Shown one piece after another: positions 2,251 to 9,517 of a stretch of 32,640 nt of DNA (the stretch's first letter is position 1; the number at the start of each line of letters is the position of its first letter). The notes under the pieces are model-generated. The model did no database searches. It was not told where the DNA came from and saw only the letters and a list, made by a program, of their open reading frames with translations. The DNA is taken from the IMG/VR virus record IMGVR_UViG_3300022562_000294, positions 1-32,640 of that record. One strand, 5' to 3'. This DNA is from a virus. The position numbers and the translations under genes were made by a program.

Positions 2251-3747
2251 GTGGCTACAGAGAACCGGCTAAGATTAATTCCGACAGCGTGTATTCAAAT
2301 ACCTGAGGACCGTCAAAGAAAAGATATTTCGCAAGAGCACCTAGAGGATCTAAGAACCTCTATCATGCGCCCTGCAGGCCTCTTGAATCCCATCATAGTT
2401 CGCCCTAATGGCGAGGACCGCTTTGTCCTTGTAGCTGGCGAATGCAGGCTAAAAGCCTGGAAACAAATAGAAAACTTCCCACCCGAAATAAGTGCCAAAT
2501 ACCGCAAAGGTATCCCTGCCCGGCTTCTATCAGATTTAACTCCAGATGAGCTTTTTGACGTTGAGTTCGAGGAGAACTATCGACGCAAGGACTTATCTTG
2601 GCAAGACCAGTCCGTGGCCTTCTGGGAACACTTCCAGCGCCAGCAAAATCGCTACGAAGTAGAAAGAGCAGAAGCTCTGGAAGATCCCAACGAAAACGAA
2701 GAGGACTGGCCCGAAGAGATAACCTTTTCTCAGGCCGCTGGTGCTATCGCAATATCTTCCAGACACTACAGGCGCATGGTCACAGTAGGTCGCAAGGTTA
2801 TCGAGGGCGATCCAGAGATCTTGGCCTGCGATTCTGCTCGTGCTGCTGGGGCACTTCTAGAGCGCCGCATGAAGCGAGTAGCCGAGAACGAACTGGCTAC
2901 CTTTGGTGAAATCGAGGCGGACATTGAAGATGACCTAGATCAACTCAGTGGCCCGTCTGACGAAGATCTAGAGGGCCTAGAAATTGAACTTGGGGGTGAG
3001 TTCAGTGAGCCAAGTCCAAAAGCAAGAGCCACAAAGTGCTTTGTCTTTAACCAGAGTTTTAAGGCTTTCATCGCAGAAGCTAAAGACGTTAAAGATAGGC
3101 GACGATACAACTTTGTTCATTGTGATTTCCCATACGGCAAAGGTCTACACGAAAGCGATCTTTATAATACAGAAGCCAAGGATATGTCCTACGAGGACAC
3201 ACCAGAAATATACTGGGCACTCTGTAATGACCTTCTGTTGGCGAAAGCGGCCGGGATTCTATCGGCCTCCTGTCACATCATGTTCTGGTTCCCAATGAAT
3301 TTCTACACTGAAACTGTTAAGCTATTTTCAGATGAGGGCTTCCGTGTCGAACCGTACCCGCTGGTTTGGATCAAGAGTGACAAAATGGGCATCATACCTG
3401 ACCCGGCGAGGGGGCCGAGAAGAATCTACGAAACAGCTCTCATCATGTCATTGGGAGATAGAAAGATCATCAGGCCCACCGTCAACGGAGCCTGGTATTC
3501 GAGTGGACGAAGAACCGACGCGCTTCATGTCAGCTCAAAGCCAACAGAAATGCTTCTGGACTTCTTTAGGATGTTTGTTGATGAGGACTCTATCGTACTT
3601 GATCCAACTTGCGGTAGTGGTACTGCTCTGGAAGCTAGTTTACAGTTGCGCTGCAAGTTTGCTGTCGGACTAGACATTAACGAAGAGTGTGTAGATCACT
3701 CATTGGAGAGAGCCAAGAGTGCTCAAATCAAATCTGAACTTGAATAG
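2251..3747 (+). CDS. ParB-domain / DNA methyltransferase fusion protein
   Basis: The protein has about 498 residues. The frame is open from a GTG at 2218, but that GTG lies inside the palindromic site and has no ribosome site. The GTG at 2251 follows GGGGGAACCTT and begins directly with the ParB strand (LRLIPTACIQIPEDRQRKD), so I chose it. The N-terminal 120 residues are ParB/Srx-like (LVAGECRLKAW, EENYRRKDLSW). A helical HTH-like middle follows (ITFSQAAGAIAISSRHYRR), then an acidic linker. The C-terminal half is a beta-class amino-methyltransferase: motif IV HCDFPYG precedes motif X-like SSKPTEMLLDFF and motif I LDPTCGSGTALEAS. Motif IV reads DFPY rather than the usual DPPY. It probably methylates adenine N6 or cytosine N4, for protection against restriction or for regulation. 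Confidence 0.85.
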   Translation: MATENRLRLIPTACIQIPEDRQRKDISQEHLEDLRTSIMRPAGLLNPIIVRPNGEDRFVLVAGECRLKAWKQIENFPPEISAKYRKGIPARLLSDLTPDELFDVEFEENYRRKDLSWQDQSVAFWEHFQRQQNRYEVERAEALEDPNENEEDWPEEITFSQAAGAIAISSRHYRRMVTVGRKVIEGDPEILACDSARAAGALLERRMKRVAENELATFGEIEADIEDDLDQLSGPSDEDLEGLEIELGGEFSEPSPKARATKCFVFNQSFKAFIAEAKDVKDRRRYNFVHCDFPYGKGLHESDLYNTEAKDMSYEDTPEIYWALCNDLLLAKAAGILSASCHIMFWFPMNFYTETVKLFSDEGFRVEPYPLVWIKSDKMGIIPDPARGPRRIYETALIMSLGDRKIIRPTVNGAWYSSGRRTDALHVSSKPTEMLLDFFRMFVDEDSIVLDPTCGSGTALEASLQLRCKFAVGLDINEECVDHSLERAKSAQIKSELE

Positions 3748-3757
3748 GAGGAATAGA

Positions 3758-4129
3758 GTGGCTAGGGGGGAGCTAGTTTACATTGAGAGCCCTTACGCAG
3801 GGGATGAAGAGTTCTCAGTAGAGGATCACATCGAATATGCTAAGCTGTGCATGAAAGACTCTTTAGAACGAGGTGAGCATCCATTCGTATCTCACCTCTT
3901 ATATCCTCAGGTCTTAGACGACTTGACGCCTGACGAGCGCCGCCAGGGAATGAAAGCAGGAGAGGCCTGGGCGGGTTACGCAGATCTCAGGGCCGTCTAT
4001 GTAGACCAAGGGCAAAGCCGAGGAATGGATTGGGGAATAAGTCGTGCAGAAAAACAAGGCCAAAGAATCGAATACAGATCGCTCTACGAAAAACGAGAAC
4101 GCGAGGAAGAAGCAAGAGAGCGAATGTAA
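3758..4129 (+). CDS. Nucleoside 2-deoxyribosyltransferase-like protein (DUF7768/DUF4406-like)
   Basis: The protein has 123 residues. The frame opens upstream, but the GTG at 3758 follows a perfect AGGAGG (3746-3751) and gives the expected N-terminal strand VYIESPYAGD. Features of the family are the early 'Y-I-x-S-P-Y' strand, a helix with EYAKLCMKDSL, then PFVSHLLYPQVLDD, the WAGYADLRAVYVD strand and SRGMDWGISRAEKQG. This pattern matches the small NDT-like phage proteins that may act on nucleotides or nucleosides. The true substrate cannot be read from the sequence. The last 86 nt overlap the next gene in another frame. Confidence 0.65.
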   Translation: MARGELVYIESPYAGDEEFSVEDHIEYAKLCMKDSLERGEHPFVSHLLYPQVLDDLTPDERRQGMKAGEAWAGYADLRAVYVDQGQSRGMDWGISRAEKQGQRIEYRSLYEKREREEEARERM

Positions 4130-4286
4130 ATACTGCATGAGAGCAAGGACTAATTACGGAAAACAGACCATGTGCCCGGAAGTATCAAAGCTAGGATCTC
4201 TCTGCACTAGGCCAACTAATCACACCGGGCCTCATGTGGCCTGCGGGCTCATAGCCCACGATTACGAGAGATGGGAAAACAACTAA
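4044..4286 (+). CDS. Small cysteine/histidine-rich putative zinc protein
   Basis: The GTG at 4044 gives 80 residues, and an in-frame ATG at 4137 would give 49. The longer form contains ECKYC, a C-x2-C pair. Both forms contain the motif SLCTRPTNHTGPHVACG, seen in small phage proteins as C-x2-P-x2-H-x2-P-H-x2-C, followed by HDYERW. These residues could bind zinc. The 5' part overlaps the preceding gene by 86 nt in another frame, and its lysine/asparagine-rich N-terminus may not be translated. The choice of start is uncertain. It is a DNA-metabolism neighbour with unknown role. Confidence 0.5.
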   Translation: MQKNKAKESNTDRSTKNENARKKQESECKYCMRARTNYGKQTMCPEVSKLGSLCTRPTNHTGPHVACGLIAHDYERWENN

Positions 4287-5389
4287 TGCCCTACATGGAC
4301 ACTAGTAACAAGGTCGAAGTTCCTAGCTATTTTCCCTCCATCAAAAATGGCCTGGCCTTCGTGGCTCAGAGCCCTGGGAAAAACGAGGTAGAACAACTCA
4401 GGCCCCTGGTTGGAGCCAGTGGCAAACTCCTGAGGGATCTATGTCAAACAGCTGGCATAGATTTCAACCTGTGTTCACTGTTGAACGTAGTCAATTTCCG
4501 CCCCCCAGGAAATGACTTCCAGTTCTTCTGTGGCAAGAAGGCTGACGTGGGAGGCAAGGACTATCCCCTTCCTCCCATCGCCTCAGGAGTTTACCTCAGG
4601 CCCGAATACTTTAACCAGCTAGACAGATTAAAGGCAGAACTAGAAGCCCTTAAGCCCAACCTAGTAGTTGCCCTCGGCCGCGAAGCTCTCTGGGCTCTAA
4701 CGGGATTAAGTGGAATTAACAAATATCGCGGCTCTGTGATGGAATGCAAGCTGGTTCCTGGGCTTAAAGTTCTTCCCACATTTCATCCAGCCGGGATCTT
4801 CAGAAACTATGGAAACAAAATCTATCTGACTCTAGATTTATTTAAGGCCAAAGCAGAACTCAAGTTCCCAGAAATAAAAAGCATCGAACGCGAGATGCAC
4901 CTCTATCCAGAGAGCCCTGGAGAACTCTGGGAGTGGCACGACAATAACCAGTATCGCTTCGGCCACGATCCGCTTCTATCTGTGGATATTGAGGACCGAA
5001 CTTCTAAGGGCCAAAAAATCATCGAGTGCATTGGCTTTGCTTTCAGTCCCTTCAACGCTCTAGTAGTTCCATTCTGGTCAGACCTTCGCCAAGATCATAA
5101 CTACTGGCTGAGCGAAGACGATGAACTCAGAGCCTGGGAGTTCGTCGATTATATGCTTACTAGCTATCCTGTCCTGGGCCAGAACTATATAGCCTATGAC
5201 ACCTGGGTACTACTAAAAGAAATGGGCTTAAAGACCTTAAATCTTGCTGAAGATACAATGATCCAGCATCATGCCTTTCAGCCTGAAATGCAAAAAGGGC
5301 TTGGGGTCCTAGCGAGCATCTATTGCAACGTCCCAGCCTACAAGACCATGAAGCCACGCGGCAAACGTGCCGCTAAGCGAGATGAATAA
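4271..5389 (+). CDS. Uracil-DNA glycosylase domain fused to DNA polymerase I-type 3'-5' exonuclease (N-terminal part of a split polymerase)
   Basis: The protein has 372 residues (alternative ATG at 4286). Residues about 25-200 resemble a family-4-like UDG: FVAQSPGKNE (usual G-E-x-P-G altered to A-Q-S-P-G), NVVNFRPPGN and PTFHPAGIFRN. The N-terminal C-x2-C of Fe-S UDGs is missing. Residues about 230-355 form a DnaQ-like proofreading domain: Exo I SVDIE (D239, E241), Exo II GQNYIAYD (N305, D310) and EDTMIQHHAF. Exo III (Y-x3-D) is absent here but present at the start of the polymerase gene at 6786. UDG-exo-pol fusions are known in some phages (SPO1-type polymerases, from memory). The basic tail KPRGKRAAKRDE ends the polypeptide, where a continuous enzyme would carry on. 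The two halves probably assemble. Confidence 0.8.
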   Translation: MGKQLMPYMDTSNKVEVPSYFPSIKNGLAFVAQSPGKNEVEQLRPLVGASGKLLRDLCQTAGIDFNLCSLLNVVNFRPPGNDFQFFCGKKADVGGKDYPLPPIASGVYLRPEYFNQLDRLKAELEALKPNLVVALGREALWALTGLSGINKYRGSVMECKLVPGLKVLPTFHPAGIFRNYGNKIYLTLDLFKAKAELKFPEIKSIEREMHLYPESPGELWEWHDNNQYRFGHDPLLSVDIEDRTSKGQKIIECIGFAFSPFNALVVPFWSDLRQDHNYWLSEDDELRAWEFVDYMLTSYPVLGQNYIAYDTWVLLKEMGLKTLNLAEDTMIQHHAFQPEMQKGLGVLASIYCNVPAYKTMKPRGKRAAKRDE

Positions 5390-5417
5390 ACTAACTCCCA
5401 CAGGAAAGGAACAAGGT

Positions 5418-5990
5418 ATGGAACGCATTAAAGTCAAGATCGTAGGAATTAGCCCGCTTCTGATGAACAAGTTTACTGATGAAGCACAAATGAAGGCCAC
5501 GAAGGGTACAGGCTCTTCACAAGTAGGCACTAGGCCCAGTCCTGAAGAAGATGCTGAGAGCAGGCTGTATTATGACGAGGGCGGCAATATCATTATGCCG
5601 CAACCAAACATATACAACTGTTTAATCAATGCAGGCAAGTTCCATAAGCATGGAAAATCTAAAGTAACTACTCTTAGAACAAGTCTGATTCCTGCTGGCA
5701 TCTTTATGAACGAGATGTACTACAAGCTCGAATCAGAAGGTGGATGGTCAGTAGATGCCAGACCAATTCGGAATCCGGTAACTGGCGGCAGAATTATTCG
5801 CTATCGTCCTGTATTCTATGACTGGTCAGTCAGTTTCGAGCTTGAAGTCGATACTGAGATGTTCAGCATTGATATGGCTCGTCAGTTCATGGACGATGCT
5901 GGAAAGAAAATTGGCCTCTGTGACTTCCGGCCAGACTGTCGTGGTCCGTTCGGAAGGTTCAGGGTTGATAAGTGGGAACGTGTAAAATGA
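5418..5990 (+). CDS. Hypothetical protein with N-terminal 'GISPLLMNKF' strand
   Basis: The ATG at 5418 has an AAGGA site 7 nt away and gives 190 residues. Longer in-frame starts at 5367 and 5382 overlap the exonuclease gene and add no plausible domain. The protein opens with a beta strand and loop, IKVKIVGISPLLMNKF. It has a flexible charged stretch (residues about 25-50), then alternating strand/helix segments including NIYNCLINAGKFHKHGKSK, TTLRTSLIPAGIF and RYRPVFYDWSVSFELEVD. It ends CDFRPDCRGPFGRFRVDKW. I do not recognise an enzyme. The order suggests a nucleic-acid-binding beta-alpha fold, and its stop codon directly abuts the pentanucleotide tract, so it is a candidate binder of it. That link is inference. 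Confidence 0.6.
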   Translation: MERIKVKIVGISPLLMNKFTDEAQMKATKGTGSSQVGTRPSPEEDAESRLYYDEGGNIIMPQPNIYNCLINAGKFHKHGKSKVTTLRTSLIPAGIFMNEMYYKLESEGGWSVDARPIRNPVTGGRIIRYRPVFYDWSVSFELEVDTEMFSIDMARQFMDDAGKKIGLCDFRPDCRGPFGRFRVDKWERVK

Positions 5991-6307
5991 GGCGGGGTAC
6001 GGTGAGCTGTGGCTAGTTCCGGCGCGCTTTGGACTGGTGCGGTAAGCCGAGGTTGTGTCGGCCAGCGTTCGGCTGGGTACGCCACTCTTTCGCGGGGCTG
6101 GGTGTGGTGTGTTTAGCTATGGTAAGGTGTGGCGCGTCACGCTTTGGTCGGGTCGGGTTGTCTCGGGTTGGCCTCGCTCCGGTACGGTATGGACTAGGAG
6201 AGGTCCGGCTGGGTGGTGCTAGGTATGGTTTAGGCAATGCTAGGCGCGTTCGGGCGAGGTACGGTCCTGTCCGGTAGTGCAAGCTATGGCTCGCTTGGGT
6301 TAGGCAT
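5991..6307 (+). repeat. Phased degenerate pentanucleotide tract, GGYNN x about 63
   Basis: The interval between two genes divides into consecutive 5-mers, G-G-Y-N-N. Three blocks keep phase: 5991-6195 (41 units), 6197-6231 (7 units) and 6233-6307 (15 units). They are separated by single inserted A residues at 6196 and 6232. Position 3 is C or T in 60 of 63 units, position 1 is G in the large majority, position 2 is usually G, and positions 4-5 vary freely. The tract starts on the base after a TGA stop and ends in the ATG of the next gene. Open frames exist on both strands across it, but their compositions follow the repeat. I treat it as non-coding. The period is not a multiple of 3. Confidence 0.9.
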
Positions 6308-6638
6308 GGGAACTGAAGATTTCTTGAATCCTGATGGATCTTGGAAGTGCATCAAATGTGGTGCGTGCTGTTACACTGTTGCAACTGCATACCCCCATCT
6401 AGATCGCAACGACGGAACAGGCCGCTGTATCCATCTAACAGAGGAGAATCTTTGCGCGATCTACGAAAACAGACCAGAGCTGTGCAGGGTGCCAAAGGCC
6501 CTAGGAACTTCGATTCCTGACAAGATGGCCGAGGCCTGTGATCTATTGAGAACTGTGTTCTTAGGGGGTGAGGGTGAAGTGCTTCAAGTGCCAGAGGGAA
6601 CCAGAGGAACTGATCGAATACCAAGACGCCGCAAGTGA
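6306..6638 (+). CDS. CxxCxxCC-type metal-binding protein (YkgJ-like)
   Basis: The ATG at 6306 lies in the last repeat unit and gives 110 residues. The frame stays open further upstream only through the repeat tract. The protein contains CIKCGACCYTV (C-x2-C-x2-CC), then DGTGRCIHL, LCAIYENRPELCRV, the arrangement of the YkgJ/CxxCxxCC zinc- or iron-chelating family. The exact role of that family in phages is unknown. No good Shine-Dalgarno sequence precedes the start, apart from the G-rich repeat itself, so the tract may influence its translation. The 3' end overlaps the next gene by about 65 nt. Confidence 0.75.
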   Translation: MGTEDFLNPDGSWKCIKCGACCYTVATAYPHLDRNDGTGRCIHLTEENLCAIYENRPELCRVPKALGTSIPDKMAEACDLLRTVFLGGEGEVLQVPEGTRGTDRIPRRRK

Positions 6639-6789
6639 GAGCGGCATGAACATAAGGGACTACGTTAAATTCGAGGAAGGAACTTATGACCCGCAAACAG
6701 ACTATTTCCTCTGTACGCCTTGCTATATTAATCTAGATATGCCAATCATGCCAGAGATCCTAATGCTCTACCAAAAGGGTTATCAATGA
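6574..6789 (+). CDS. Small putative zinc-ribbon protein
   Basis: The GTG at 6574, 6 nt after an AGGGGG site (about 6562-6567), gives 71 residues. A GTG at 6568 adds two. C-x2-C pairs flank the protein: CFKC at the start and CTPC about 45 residues later. This fits a small zinc ribbon, although the family is unknown. It overlaps the preceding gene by about 65 nt in another frame. It overlaps the polymerase start by 4 nt (ATGA), implying coupled translation with the polymerase. Confidence 0.6.
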   Translation: MKCFKCQREPEELIEYQDAASESGMNIRDYVKFEEGTYDPQTDYFLCTPCYINLDMPIMPEILMLYQKGYQ

Positions 6790-8294
6790 AGATAGTTAAA
6801 ACATCAGAACTAACAGACTATCTAAGGGCCTCTAGTCCTGACGCGAAGCTCTGGATCTATAACGCCTTCGACGTTATGCTTCCTTTGGAAATCTTCGAGG
6901 AAGTCAAGTCCAGAATGACTGAAAACCAAAAACATACCTACCGCTTTGAGAAAGCCCTACAAGGCCCGGCCTTCTCTATGATGCAGAATGGCATCAAAGT
7001 AGATATGGCTCTCTTAGCACAAGAGACTAAGCGCGCCAAAAAGGAACTAGAAGATCTAGAATCCTACGTCAGGTCTTTAGCCATTGCCGTTTGGGGAGAT
7101 GGAATCAACGTAAGATCTCCAGCTCAGATGTGCCAGCTATTCTATCTCGATCCTAATGGATTTCAATGCCAAAAGCACTACGAGGGTGTCGGCCAGAAGC
7201 GCCACCTAACTACTAACAGAAAAGCTTTAGAAAAGATCTACACCACAAACTATATAACTCGGCCGCTAATCAAGGCCATGTTTGCCCTTAAAGATATTCA
7301 AAAAGAAATCGAGTTTCTAGAACGAGGAGTCGAGCCCGATGGCCGTGTTCACTGTAGCTTTAATGTCGCTGCGACCGAGACAGGACGCTGGTCAAGTTCA
7401 AAGAATCCTTGGGGACGTGGAGCTAATTTCCAAAATCAGGGCGAAAAGACTCGGAGCATATACCTTGCTGACGAGGACTTCATCTTCGCATACCCCGATC
7501 TATCGCAAGCAGAATCTCGGGCTGTGGCTTACTATTCGGGAGACAAGAATTATATTAGGGCTGTGGAATCTGGAGACCTCCACACGCAAGTCGCTAAGCT
7601 CGTATGGCCAGAGCTTCCGTGGACGGAAGATCCAAAAAGTGATAGGGAGATAGCCGATGGGCCTTATTACAGACATTTTTCCTATCGTGATATGTCGAAG
7701 CGTGGAGGACACGCACTCAACTACCTCGGACAACCCTATACGATTGCATCCCATCTTAATCTCGAAAGGGAGCAAGCGGAAGATTTCTACTCACGTTACT
7801 TTGGAGCGTTCCCAGACATTGCAGAATGGCATAATCGAGTACAAATTGACCTTCAGAATACCGGCCGACTTACAACTGCACTTGGACGAGAACGGATGTT
7901 TTTTGGTAGACTCGACGATAACCACACGCTCAAAGAAGCGATAGCATTCTTGCCACAGAGTCTAATTTCAGACATTCTAAAGATCGGAACACTTTACATC
8001 TGGAAAGAGTTTGAGCTTAAGCGTCGCTGGGCCAAACTCTGTGGTGATCTACATGACGGGCTACTAATGCTAATCAAGAAGATTCATCTCGACGAGAGCG
8101 CTCCTATTATGATTCAGATGATGGAGCAGAAAGTTAAAATGCCACACGGAGTTATGAAGATTCCCGTAGACTTCACAGTAGGCTATAGATGGCAGAAGAA
8201 AGAGATGCTAAAATGGAAGCCAGGAATTTTAGCACAACTAAAACCTATCACTCCCACAGACAATCTATTGGACATTAAAGCCACGGACGTTTAG
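6786..8294 (+). CDS. Family-A DNA polymerase, polymerase domain plus Exo III motif
   Basis: The protein has 502 residues. Residues 23-35, WIYNAFDVMLPLE, match the Exo III Y-x3-D motif (Y25, D29) and helix that close a PolA proofreading domain whose other motifs are in the 4271 gene. Polymerase motif A, YPDLSQAESR, is near residue 235. Motif B, RDMSKRGGHALNY, is near 301-313 and has the conserved R, K and Y. Motif C, DLHDGLL, is near 420. The usual Glu after the motif C Asp is Gly (H-D-G). The O-helix position corresponding to E. coli Phe762 appears to be His, as in several phage enzymes (from memory). There is no 5'-3' exonuclease domain. It replicates phage DNA, probably paired with the UDG/exo subunit. 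Confidence 0.85.
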   Translation: MKIVKTSELTDYLRASSPDAKLWIYNAFDVMLPLEIFEEVKSRMTENQKHTYRFEKALQGPAFSMMQNGIKVDMALLAQETKRAKKELEDLESYVRSLAIAVWGDGINVRSPAQMCQLFYLDPNGFQCQKHYEGVGQKRHLTTNRKALEKIYTTNYITRPLIKAMFALKDIQKEIEFLERGVEPDGRVHCSFNVAATETGRWSSSKNPWGRGANFQNQGEKTRSIYLADEDFIFAYPDLSQAESRAVAYYSGDKNYIRAVESGDLHTQVAKLVWPELPWTEDPKSDREIADGPYYRHFSYRDMSKRGGHALNYLGQPYTIASHLNLEREQAEDFYSRYFGAFPDIAEWHNRVQIDLQNTGRLTTALGRERMFFGRLDDNHTLKEAIAFLPQSLISDILKIGTLYIWKEFELKRRWAKLCGDLHDGLLMLIKKIHLDESAPIMIQMMEQKVKMPHGVMKIPVDFTVGYRWQKKEMLKWKPGILAQLKPITPTDNLLDIKATDV

Positions 8295-8308: not shown

Positions 8309-9517
8309 GTGAGAAAGTGTGACAACTGGCTTAAGAGCTGGTTGGAATACTCTTCGAGTTGGGAGTCGCCAGAGCGGTTTAGGCTGTGGTCAGGGATAGC
8401 TGCAATTAGCGCGGTAACACAAAGAAGATTGTTTACTTATGTCAAAGGACAGCAGTTATTTCCGAACACTTATATTTTGCTCATCGGATCTCCCGGTTCT
8501 GGAAAAGGCAACGCCATGAAATACCTGGCCCAGTGGCTCAAGGACTTCGATGGAGAGTTTTTTAGAATGGCCCCTGACGGGCTAACTAAAAGAGCCTTTT
8601 ACATGACCCTCGAAGGCGCAAAGGTTATGCCGGGAGGAGATCCAAATAACGAGCAGCATTCATTAACTGCCTTCATTGAAGAACTCGGAGTCTTTCTTCA
8701 TCCAGGAGACAATGACTTTGTTTACGCACTTTGCCACGTCTATGACTGCCCAAAGAAATTTCACTATAAGACGGCTAGCGCAGGTGAAAACTTTGCCAAC
8801 AATGCCTGTTTCACAATGCTTAGTGCGTGTACGCCCAAAGCGCTACGTGATATCTACACTGAAGATGCGATGGAGTTGGGAATTAGCGCACGAACTATCA
8901 TTGTTTATGCAGACGATAAGATCGAAGTCCCAATCTTCGGAAAGCCAGAAAACCACGACAAGCTCGCAAAAGACCTAAAGTATGATTTAGCTAGGATGCT
9001 CGAAACCGAAGGAGAATATCAGTTTGACGAAGAGGCCGCCCAAGCTCTAGTCGATTGGGCCGCAACAGACTTCGCGCCTAAGCCGAAGGACTCCAGGTTT
9101 GAGCACTACAATTCAAGAAGGTTTGTCCAAATAGTAAAGCTCTGTATGATATGTGCGCTCTCCAAACGAGACGATCCTATAATTCTAATAGAGGACTTCA
9201 ATCAAGCCAGGGATATGCTACTAGAGTGCGAGCGCTATATGCCAAAGGCTATTGAAACCTTGGGAGCCAATCCTCTGCTAATGCAGCGTAACGCATCCAT
9301 GTTACTCATAAACGAGAACTTCAGAAAACTTAACGCTCCAACACATGAGCATGACTTAAGACGCCTAATGGAGCGTGATGTACCAATACAGTTTCACGAT
9401 GAAATGCTCGATCAGCTAGAGAAAGGTAAATGGGTAAGTGTCATAGGGTCAAAGCCAGATAGGCTTTTCTACCCAAGAGGCAAGCACATAATGGAGAAGA
9501 AGAAAGATGAAAACTAG
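8309..9517 (+). CDS. DUF3987-like P-loop ATPase, putative helicase/primase-associated
   Basis: The protein has 402 residues. The GTG start follows a GGGGGG site. After an N-terminal helix with a tryptophan-rich patch, PNTYILLIGSPGSGKGN supplies a Walker A at about 60-68. The final Ser/Thr of the P-loop is Gly here. Residues 118-127 (LTAFIEELG) are the likely Walker B. A basic, helical C-terminus resembles a winged-helix (ENFRKLNAPTHEHDLRRLM). The layout 'W-x-A-I-S, PN-x-Y-x-L-L-I-G-x-P-G-S-G-K' is the DUF3987 pattern. That family is often linked to primase or helicase modules. Its position after the polymerase fits a replicative ATPase role, inferred only. Confidence 0.65.
   Translation: MRKCDNWLKSWLEYSSSWESPERFRLWSGIAAISAVTQRRLFTYVKGQQLFPNTYILLIGSPGSGKGNAMKYLAQWLKDFDGEFFRMAPDGLTKRAFYMTLEGAKVMPGGDPNNEQHSLTAFIEELGVFLHPGDNDFVYALCHVYDCPKKFHYKTASAGENFANNACFTMLSACTPKALRDIYTEDAMELGISARTIIVYADDKIEVPIFGKPENHDKLAKDLKYDLARMLETEGEYQFDEEAAQALVDWAATDFAPKPKDSRFEHYNSRRFVQIVKLCMICALSKRDDPIILIEDFNQARDMLLECERYMPKAIETLGANPLLMQRNASMLLINENFRKLNAPTHEHDLRRLMERDVPIQFHDEMLDQLEKGKWVSVIGSKPDRLFYPRGKHIMEKKKDEN

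Follow-up and report, generated by a model that had tools for sequence, protein, structure and literature searches.

A family-A DNA polymerase divided over two genes in a group of phages, with its exonuclease motifs on either side of the break

Layout of the locus and its catalytic residues

The DNA analysed here, called the window throughout, is the whole of the 32,640-nucleotide (nt) IMG/VR virus record IMGVR_UViG_3300022562_000294. It carries two genes that together hold the parts of a family-A DNA polymerase, the first of them fused to a uracil-DNA glycosylase (UDG)-like domain. A preliminary description, made from the sequence alone, had proposed that exonuclease motifs I and II lie in the first gene (UDG-exo, 4271-5389), with motif III and all polymerase motifs in the second (pol, 6786-8294), 1.4 kb away. 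Both open reading frames (ORFs) are present at these places, encoding 372 and 502 amino acids (aa) and separated by 1396 nt, and alignment to the Klenow fragment of Escherichia coli DNA polymerase I agrees with the proposed division. The parts of the two genes are as follows.

4271..5389, + strand: UDG-exo gene, 372 aa; UDG-like domain (residues ~9-204) and the N-terminal part of a family-A 3'-5' exonuclease domain, with motifs I and II
4985..4993, + strand: exonuclease motif I, D239-I-E241 (Klenow D355, E357), by Klenow profile alignment
5183..5200, + strand: exonuclease motif II, N305...D310 (Klenow N420, D424), by Klenow profile alignment
5342..5386, + strand: C-terminal tail of the UDG-exo protein, starting at invariant lysine 358 and ending ...KRDE
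6786..8294, + strand: pol gene, 502 aa; conserved N-terminal segment, exonuclease motif III and family-A polymerase domain
6786..6803, + strand: N-terminal segment of the pol protein, MKIVKT, kept in the split clade and a gap in sampled non-split relatives
6858..6872, + strand: exonuclease motif III, Y25-N-A-F-D29 (Klenow Y497, D501), by Klenow profile alignment
7497..7499, + strand: polymerase motif A aspartate D238 (Klenow D705), by Klenow profile alignment
7698..7724, + strand: polymerase motif B, K305...Y313 (Klenow K758, Y766), with His309 at the Klenow 762 position
8052..8057, + strand: polymerase motif C, H423-D424 (Klenow H881, D882), by Klenow profile alignment

Pfam searches recovered a UDG domain in the UDG-exo product (1.4e-15), together with a sub-threshold match to the PolA exonuclease domain (0.0019), and DNA_pol_A (PF00476) in the pol product (1.7e-38). 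The profile of phage family-A polymerases, PHROG 17, is matched by UDG-exo over positions 554-788 and by pol over positions 802-1237; these stretches abut, which is the pattern expected of one gene cut in two. When a profile of the family was aligned to E. coli Klenow with hhalign (probability 100%, E 2.4e-42), the two genes together covered the alignment end to end. The alignment places the catalytic residues as listed, with Klenow R754 falling on pol R301, so that polymerase motifs A (D), B (R..K...Y) and C (HD) are all present in pol and in the right order. The four carboxylates and the motif III tyrosine of a DEDDy exonuclease form a complete set, but one divided over the two genes. Since Klenow residue 473 corresponds to residue 370 of the 372 in the exo protein, and Klenow 497 to pol residue 25, no piece of the exonuclease domain is missing. 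On this residue mapping, the exonuclease site would be complete only if the two products associate.

Two positions of the polymerase domain differ from E. coli Pol I. The Klenow 762 position (pol His309, 7710-7712) is His in 86 of the 89 readable split members and in 17 of 19 non-split relatives; a survey of virioplankton PolA, as searched, gives only Phe, Tyr and Leu as residue-762 types (PMC6302109). Motif C is mostly HDA or HDS in relatives and HDG in the window, against HDE in E. coli Pol I.

Relatives, conservation and descent of the split

The exo half proved to be the productive bait for relatives; a single-protein back-translation scan with the pol half gave no yield, and a two-row pol alignment returned non-relatives only. 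An IMG/VR scan with a two-sequence exo alignment gave 80 loci. The first sorting of loci placed exo and pol on different ORFs in 60 (a count that includes L080, broken after motif III), found two broken inside the polymerase domain, and found 24 intact, supplying the single-ORF form that the preliminary description had proposed to look for. A second scan, with 43 sequences, returned the best 80 of at least 552 relatives; together with a genome scan it added 84 loci, comprising 79 split, five that end before pol and none intact. Some loci repeat one contig, and removal of sequences at least 90% alike reduced 138 split pairs to 97 non-redundant ones. All exo genes for which no pol was detected lie within ~1.2 kb of a contig end.

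The split loci are mainly IMG/VR contigs, described as soil and freshwater phages. The genome scan added contigs from metagenome-assembled genomes (MAGs) labelled Phycisphaerae, Actinomycetes, Sphingomonadales, Pseudomonadota and Acidobacteria, labels that are weakened by the unreliable binning of phage contigs. The single-ORF form occurs in Manatee Spring ctMlz233, Microcystis phage Mel-JY34, the archaeal-virus contig vir526 and IMG/VR loci L002-L004. Their neighbourhood is a shared one: a methylase gene lies upstream in most of the intact loci read, and a DUF3987 or primase gene lies downstream in Mel-JY34 and vir526, where annotated. One small contig (L039, 1293-5124) has exo and pol on opposite strands, through rearrangement or as a chimera. 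A second type of split, inside the polymerase domain, is seen in Vibrio phage vB_VspS_VS-ABTNL-3 (L008, 4013-7147), where the break comes shortly after NLQN, and in L075; it resembles a report from OM43 phages described below. Near the same break point, the pol gene of L032 (9351-11786) carries an in-frame, intein-like insert of ~250 aa at GTG/NLQN, which starts CVRPTAEAL and ends SVTGN before T.

The evidence that carries the argument for a joint active site is conservation. In 97/97 non-redundant split pairs there is no change at the Asp and Glu of motif I, the Asn and Asp of motif II or the Tyr and Asp of motif III, with exo proteins of split loci falling to ~25% identity to that of the window. 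All 97 pairs divide motifs I and II from motif III, and in none does either half hold all four carboxylates. The motif B His of the UDG-like domain drifts in the very same exo protein, which argues that the exonuclease invariance reflects selection rather than a lack of divergence. This invariance is the strongest argument that motif III, although stranded in the pol gene, still works with motifs I and II of the other gene.

An independent, complete exonuclease in either polypeptide, the finding that the preliminary description had named as counting against a shared site, was found in none of the 97 pairs. Nor was a separate proofreading exonuclease of the RNase_T family found in 22 records of the group, in a search whose control was positive in 10 of 14 genomes. 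Searches with PF01612 gave at most one match per record, in frames of exo-gene size; seven records had no match at the cut-off, which is attributed to the exo gene being a low-scoring half-domain.

The UDG-like domain (4271-4882) is less strictly kept. In a model of the window's UDG-exo protein, it superposes on Thermus UDG 1ui0 with Z 21.7 and rmsd 1.7 Å over 163 residues, and so has the UDG fold. Its score against the curated family 4 model (TIGR00758) is 66.4 bits, below the 125.3 cut-off; it is therefore named UDG-like and not placed in family 4. Inspection of the window's UDG-exo protein showed no N-terminal Cys-x-x-Cys of the four-cysteine iron-sulphur site of that family. The Glu position of UDG motif A is Gln in the window, and the motif B His is present. 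Across the split clade, motif A is E or D in 41/44 rows and the motif B His is lost in 14/44; it is lost in 16 of the 97 non-redundant pairs, suggesting that glycosylase activity may be absent in many members.

A tree built from both halves joined (65 rows, 46 split and 19 non-split) puts 44 of the 46 split rows in one clade with SH-aLRT 100. The intact UDG-exo-pol proteins lie outside it, with L002-L004, Mel-JY34 and other single-chain proteins as the sister group, and no re-fusion was found within the main split clade. The remaining two, L072 and L073, break at the same loop, are placed elsewhere on the tree and lack the N-terminal pol segment typical of the main clade. Forcing them into that clade costs 42 log-likelihood units (AU p = 0.062), which favours two origins; a second split is likely but not proven.

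The distance between exo and pol has a median of 568 nt and ranges from -8 to 6186 nt in the 97 pairs. Directly adjoining pairs, several with an ATGA overlap, remain split. The nearly identical L026 and L030 (end branches ~0.025) have an ATGA overlap and a 318-nt gap with a 128-aa ORF, respectively, indicating that the interruption comes and goes while the split stays. The split is thus of long standing, has become fixed across a large lineage and does not depend on which genes lie in the gap.

In the window, the preliminary description had listed a GISPLLMNKF gene, a pentamer tract and two Cys-rich genes in the interruption, and all were located within 5418-6789. It had also seen no homing endonuclease or intein there, and scans with Pfam, PHROG and Rfam found none. 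These features and the flanking genes are as follows.

3719..4129, + strand: DUF7768 / nucleoside 2-deoxyribosyltransferase-like gene, upstream of UDG-exo
5418..5990, + strand: intervening GISPLLMNKF gene, PHROG 4652 by profile match, function unassigned
5976..6225 (about), + strand: intervening pentamer-periodic tract, the period-5 maximum of the window
6306..6638, + strand: intervening gene with a CxxCxxCC (PF03692) domain, by Pfam
6568..6789, + strand: intervening small Cys-rich ORF, whose stop overlaps the pol start (ATGA, 6786-6789)
8309..9517, + strand: DUF3987 primase/helicase-like gene, directly downstream of pol

Homologues of the GISPLLMNKF gene occur in Felixounaviruses and many unrelated phages and are unconnected to the polymerase. 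The gap genes of relatives include DUF1937, DUF7768 (nucleoside 2-deoxyribosyltransferase-like), FkbM-type methyltransferases and a polynucleotide-kinase-like protein; among the relatives scanned, L031 alone has an HNH endonuclease in the gap. The largest gap (L052, 9022-15225; ~6.2 kb) holds around ten ORFs, including a polynucleotide-kinase-like gene. Many relatives have a DUF7768 or DUF1937 homologue between exo and pol, and in the window DUF7768 lies upstream of UDG-exo, which suggests a nucleotide-metabolism gene linked to the replicase. A degenerate GGNNN pentamer-periodic tract at 5976-6280 is the strongest period-5 signal in the window; relatives were scanned for it at a threshold so high that the window's own tract failed to pass. 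Promoter and terminator scans gave counts at chance level.

Both new termini show recurrent features across the main clade. On the exo side, an invariant Lys (95/95) is followed by a C-terminal tail of 9-19 residues, which most commonly finishes KRDE, KKDD, KRDD or KKDE. On the pol side, the start reads M-(K/R/P)-(I/V)-I-x-T and lies ~20 residues ahead of the motif III Tyr, with Met in 75/95, Thr6 in 82/95 and mostly I or V at residues 3-4. In the alignment, the position of this segment is a gap in 19/19 non-split rows. Klenow also has residues at this place, so the segment may be an older stretch that was kept and remodelled instead of a new one.

Structure models and the weighing of explanations

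The halves of the window are in different reading frames, and the relative L033 was therefore folded in their place, its halves being in one frame and 67 codons apart. Its stops were read as Gly, and the alignment held 13 rows, all from split loci, so that no intact relative could guide the joining of the halves. In a mixed alignment of unlinked halves, the pol parts were out of register (~14% identity), and the read-through rows took its place. The pLDDT of the resulting model is 79.9 and its pTM 0.76; the artificial linker region (373-454) is disordered, and the N-terminal pol segment forms a short strand. As one body, residues 221-929 superpose on residues 296-876 of the Bst Pol I large fragment (Z 27.5, rmsd 3.0 Å, 535 aligned residues). 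Because this superposition runs across both genes, the model predicts that motif III should be in its normal place. The joint structure prediction that the preliminary description had proposed is thereby obtained in part: the halves of L033 do superpose as one body, but as a linked read-through of a relative and not as a true co-fold.

Folded alone, the window's UDG-exo protein gives a model with pLDDT 88.8, confident for the UDG domain and the exonuclease sheet. Past residue ~330, confidence falls to ~70 and then below 50. This is the part that packs on the motif III helix in a complete domain, and it lies where the partner should pack.

Taken together, these data make it very likely, in our assessment, that the locus encodes a two-subunit family-A replicative polymerase with a DEDDy site formed at the subunit interface; we infer the heterodimer and its proofreading, and the assembled fold is a prediction. 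In this reading, the UDG-like domain is joined in one subunit to the core of the exonuclease, with motifs I and II, and the other subunit supplies the remainder of the exonuclease, with motif III, together with the whole polymerase domain; the break itself lies in the loop that connects motifs II and III. Once the chains had been translated separately, the N-terminal pol segment and the motif III helix would dock onto the exo subunit, rebuilding a single Klenow-like exo-pol enzyme. D239, E241 and D310 of the exo chain and Y25 and D29 of the pol chain would then make up the site, and proofreading would require the heterodimer. We infer that the N-terminal pol segment may help to dock the two chains. 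The gene would have undergone one split in the common ancestor of a large group of phages and probably another in a small separate group, after which the gap would have collected changing cargo genes.

Several points weigh against this interpretation. The fold is a linked prediction, for a relative with an artificial read-through linker, rather than a two-chain model of the window pair. Family-A folds are familiar to AlphaFold, so that assembly was to be expected, and the position of motif III in the L033 model rests on superposition rather than on a coordinate-level distance. The conserved residues could in principle serve DNA binding instead of catalysis. Finally, apart from the isolated phage Kuura and a few MAG contigs, every locus comes from an uncultivated viral contig.

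Another possible explanation is that pol replicates alone as an exonuclease-minus enzyme, with the UDG-exo protein serving a separate repair role and no joint active site. Exonuclease-dead family-A polymerases exist, Taq being an example, the genes are separate and in L039 lie on opposite strands, and most of the window's exo half is modelled with high confidence when folded by itself. Against it stands a motif III Tyr and Asp kept in 97/97 pol proteins alongside motifs I and II in 97/97 exo proteins, with neither half holding all four carboxylates. The exo genes that seem to stand alone do so near contig ends. We regard this explanation as improbable. Still less probable is that the parts are joined into a mature single chain at the RNA or protein level, by an intron, a split intein or ribosome bypass. 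Introns and inteins do occur in phage polymerase genes, as in the split intein of the MIJ3 PolB (PMC6892783), and L032 has its intein-like insert. An intron or other known RNA element was rejected for the window, which has no Rfam match, and inspection found no intein-like sequence at either junction. Beyond the short tails, no extra conserved sequence is present at either junction, the two genes lie anywhere between a 4-nt ATGA overlap and 6.2 kb apart, with varying content in the gap, and the pol protein has a conserved start segment of its own.

A pseudogene, frameshift or assembly artefact in this contig has a negligible chance of being correct; no point was found in its favour, and it is ruled out by the relatives, since the isolated phage Kuura and 97 non-redundant pairs have the same split with the exonuclease residues fully kept. 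Recurrence on that scale excludes chance. A further proposal concerns origin only and is compatible with the two-subunit mechanism: the split may be a neutral fission or the relic of a mobile element, tolerated because its halves reassemble and conferring no benefit in itself. Genes are known to undergo neutral fission with self-assembly of the products, and the gap of L031 contains an HNH gene. In addition, insertion is tolerated before the motif III region, as in Thermus phage G20c PolI (PMC9629493). On the other side, a homing-type domain was found in L031 only among the intervening genes scanned, and the clade is deep, lacks re-fusion and retains the split even where the genes adjoin. We give this origin an even chance. 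The arrangement has persisted in evolution for so long that it resembles a functional two-part machine rather than a broken gene.

Comparison with known polymerases and implications

The closest described counterpart is Caulobacter phage Kuura (OQ067476), an isolated phage in which Kuura_029 and Kuura_026 have the same split point and the same order, UDG-exo then pol. Both halves are 38% identical to those of the window, and pol again starts just before motif III; the window has one additional residue between the N and D of motif II compared with Kuura. The Kuura gap holds two small ORFs unlike those of the window. The two halves are annotated "hypothetical protein" and "DNA polymerase", and the genome paper, as searched, shows only that a DNA polymerase was identified (PMC9959647).

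The single-chain UDG-exo-pol polymerases (Mel-JY34, vir526, L002-L004) have the same domains in the same order, but in one polypeptide with a continuous motif II-III loop and without the conserved N-terminal segment of the split pol. The phiLo polymerase (PDB 9qhs) is a solved single-chain relative with a UDG-like N-terminus. E. coli Klenow and the Bst Pol I large fragment share the exo-pol architecture and catalytic residues, with superposition across both genes, but are single chains without a UDG domain, with Phe at 762 (window His) and HDE in motif C (window HDG).

Other divided polymerases are known. Some archaea have a replicative PolB, of family B, made from two genes, and we know of no split family-B polymerase with a divided exonuclease site. 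The split PolB of phage MIJ3 is likewise a two-gene replicative polymerase, but belongs to family B and has a split intein able to rejoin the parts (PMC6892783). In the OM43 phages MEP401 and MEP402, and in most of the related group, a family-A PolA occupies two ORFs with a small ORF between, for which the authors suggested an intron (PMC10580990); that split, unlike the one in the window, lies inside the polymerase domain and leaves the exonuclease whole in one ORF. ExnV1 (PDB 7r0t) is a family-A exonuclease domain without a polymerase domain and matches the exo-half profile, but unlike the window it has the motif I-III residues in one chain; its authors thought it to stem from a truncated gene (PMC9629493). 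The same work describes, in Thermus phage G20c PolI, an inserted motif toward the end of the exonuclease domain and before the motif III region, which fits a tolerance of insertions in that part of the domain (PMC9629493). Split polymerases and single-chain UDG-bearing family-A polymerases are thus already known, whereas this split point was not found described. The literature searched, with many subscription papers outside its reach, gave no account of a family-A exonuclease site shared out over two genes.

A separate UDG-exo subunit might let the phage vary proofreading, or deliver the UDG-like domain, through binding or subunit ratio, giving a switchable replication fidelity; this is speculative, and we think it unlikely. 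If the two-subunit interpretation is correct, it would account for the annotation gap in phages such as Kuura, in which a "hypothetical protein" stands next to a "DNA polymerase" that seemingly has no exonuclease. It would also provide a natural split-polymerase system in which proofreading is added or withheld by mixing proteins, of use for building polymerases of controllable fidelity and for studying why gene fission persists. In such an enzyme, two replicase subunits would build in trans a nuclease active site that belongs to one domain, an arrangement maintained across a large phage lineage.

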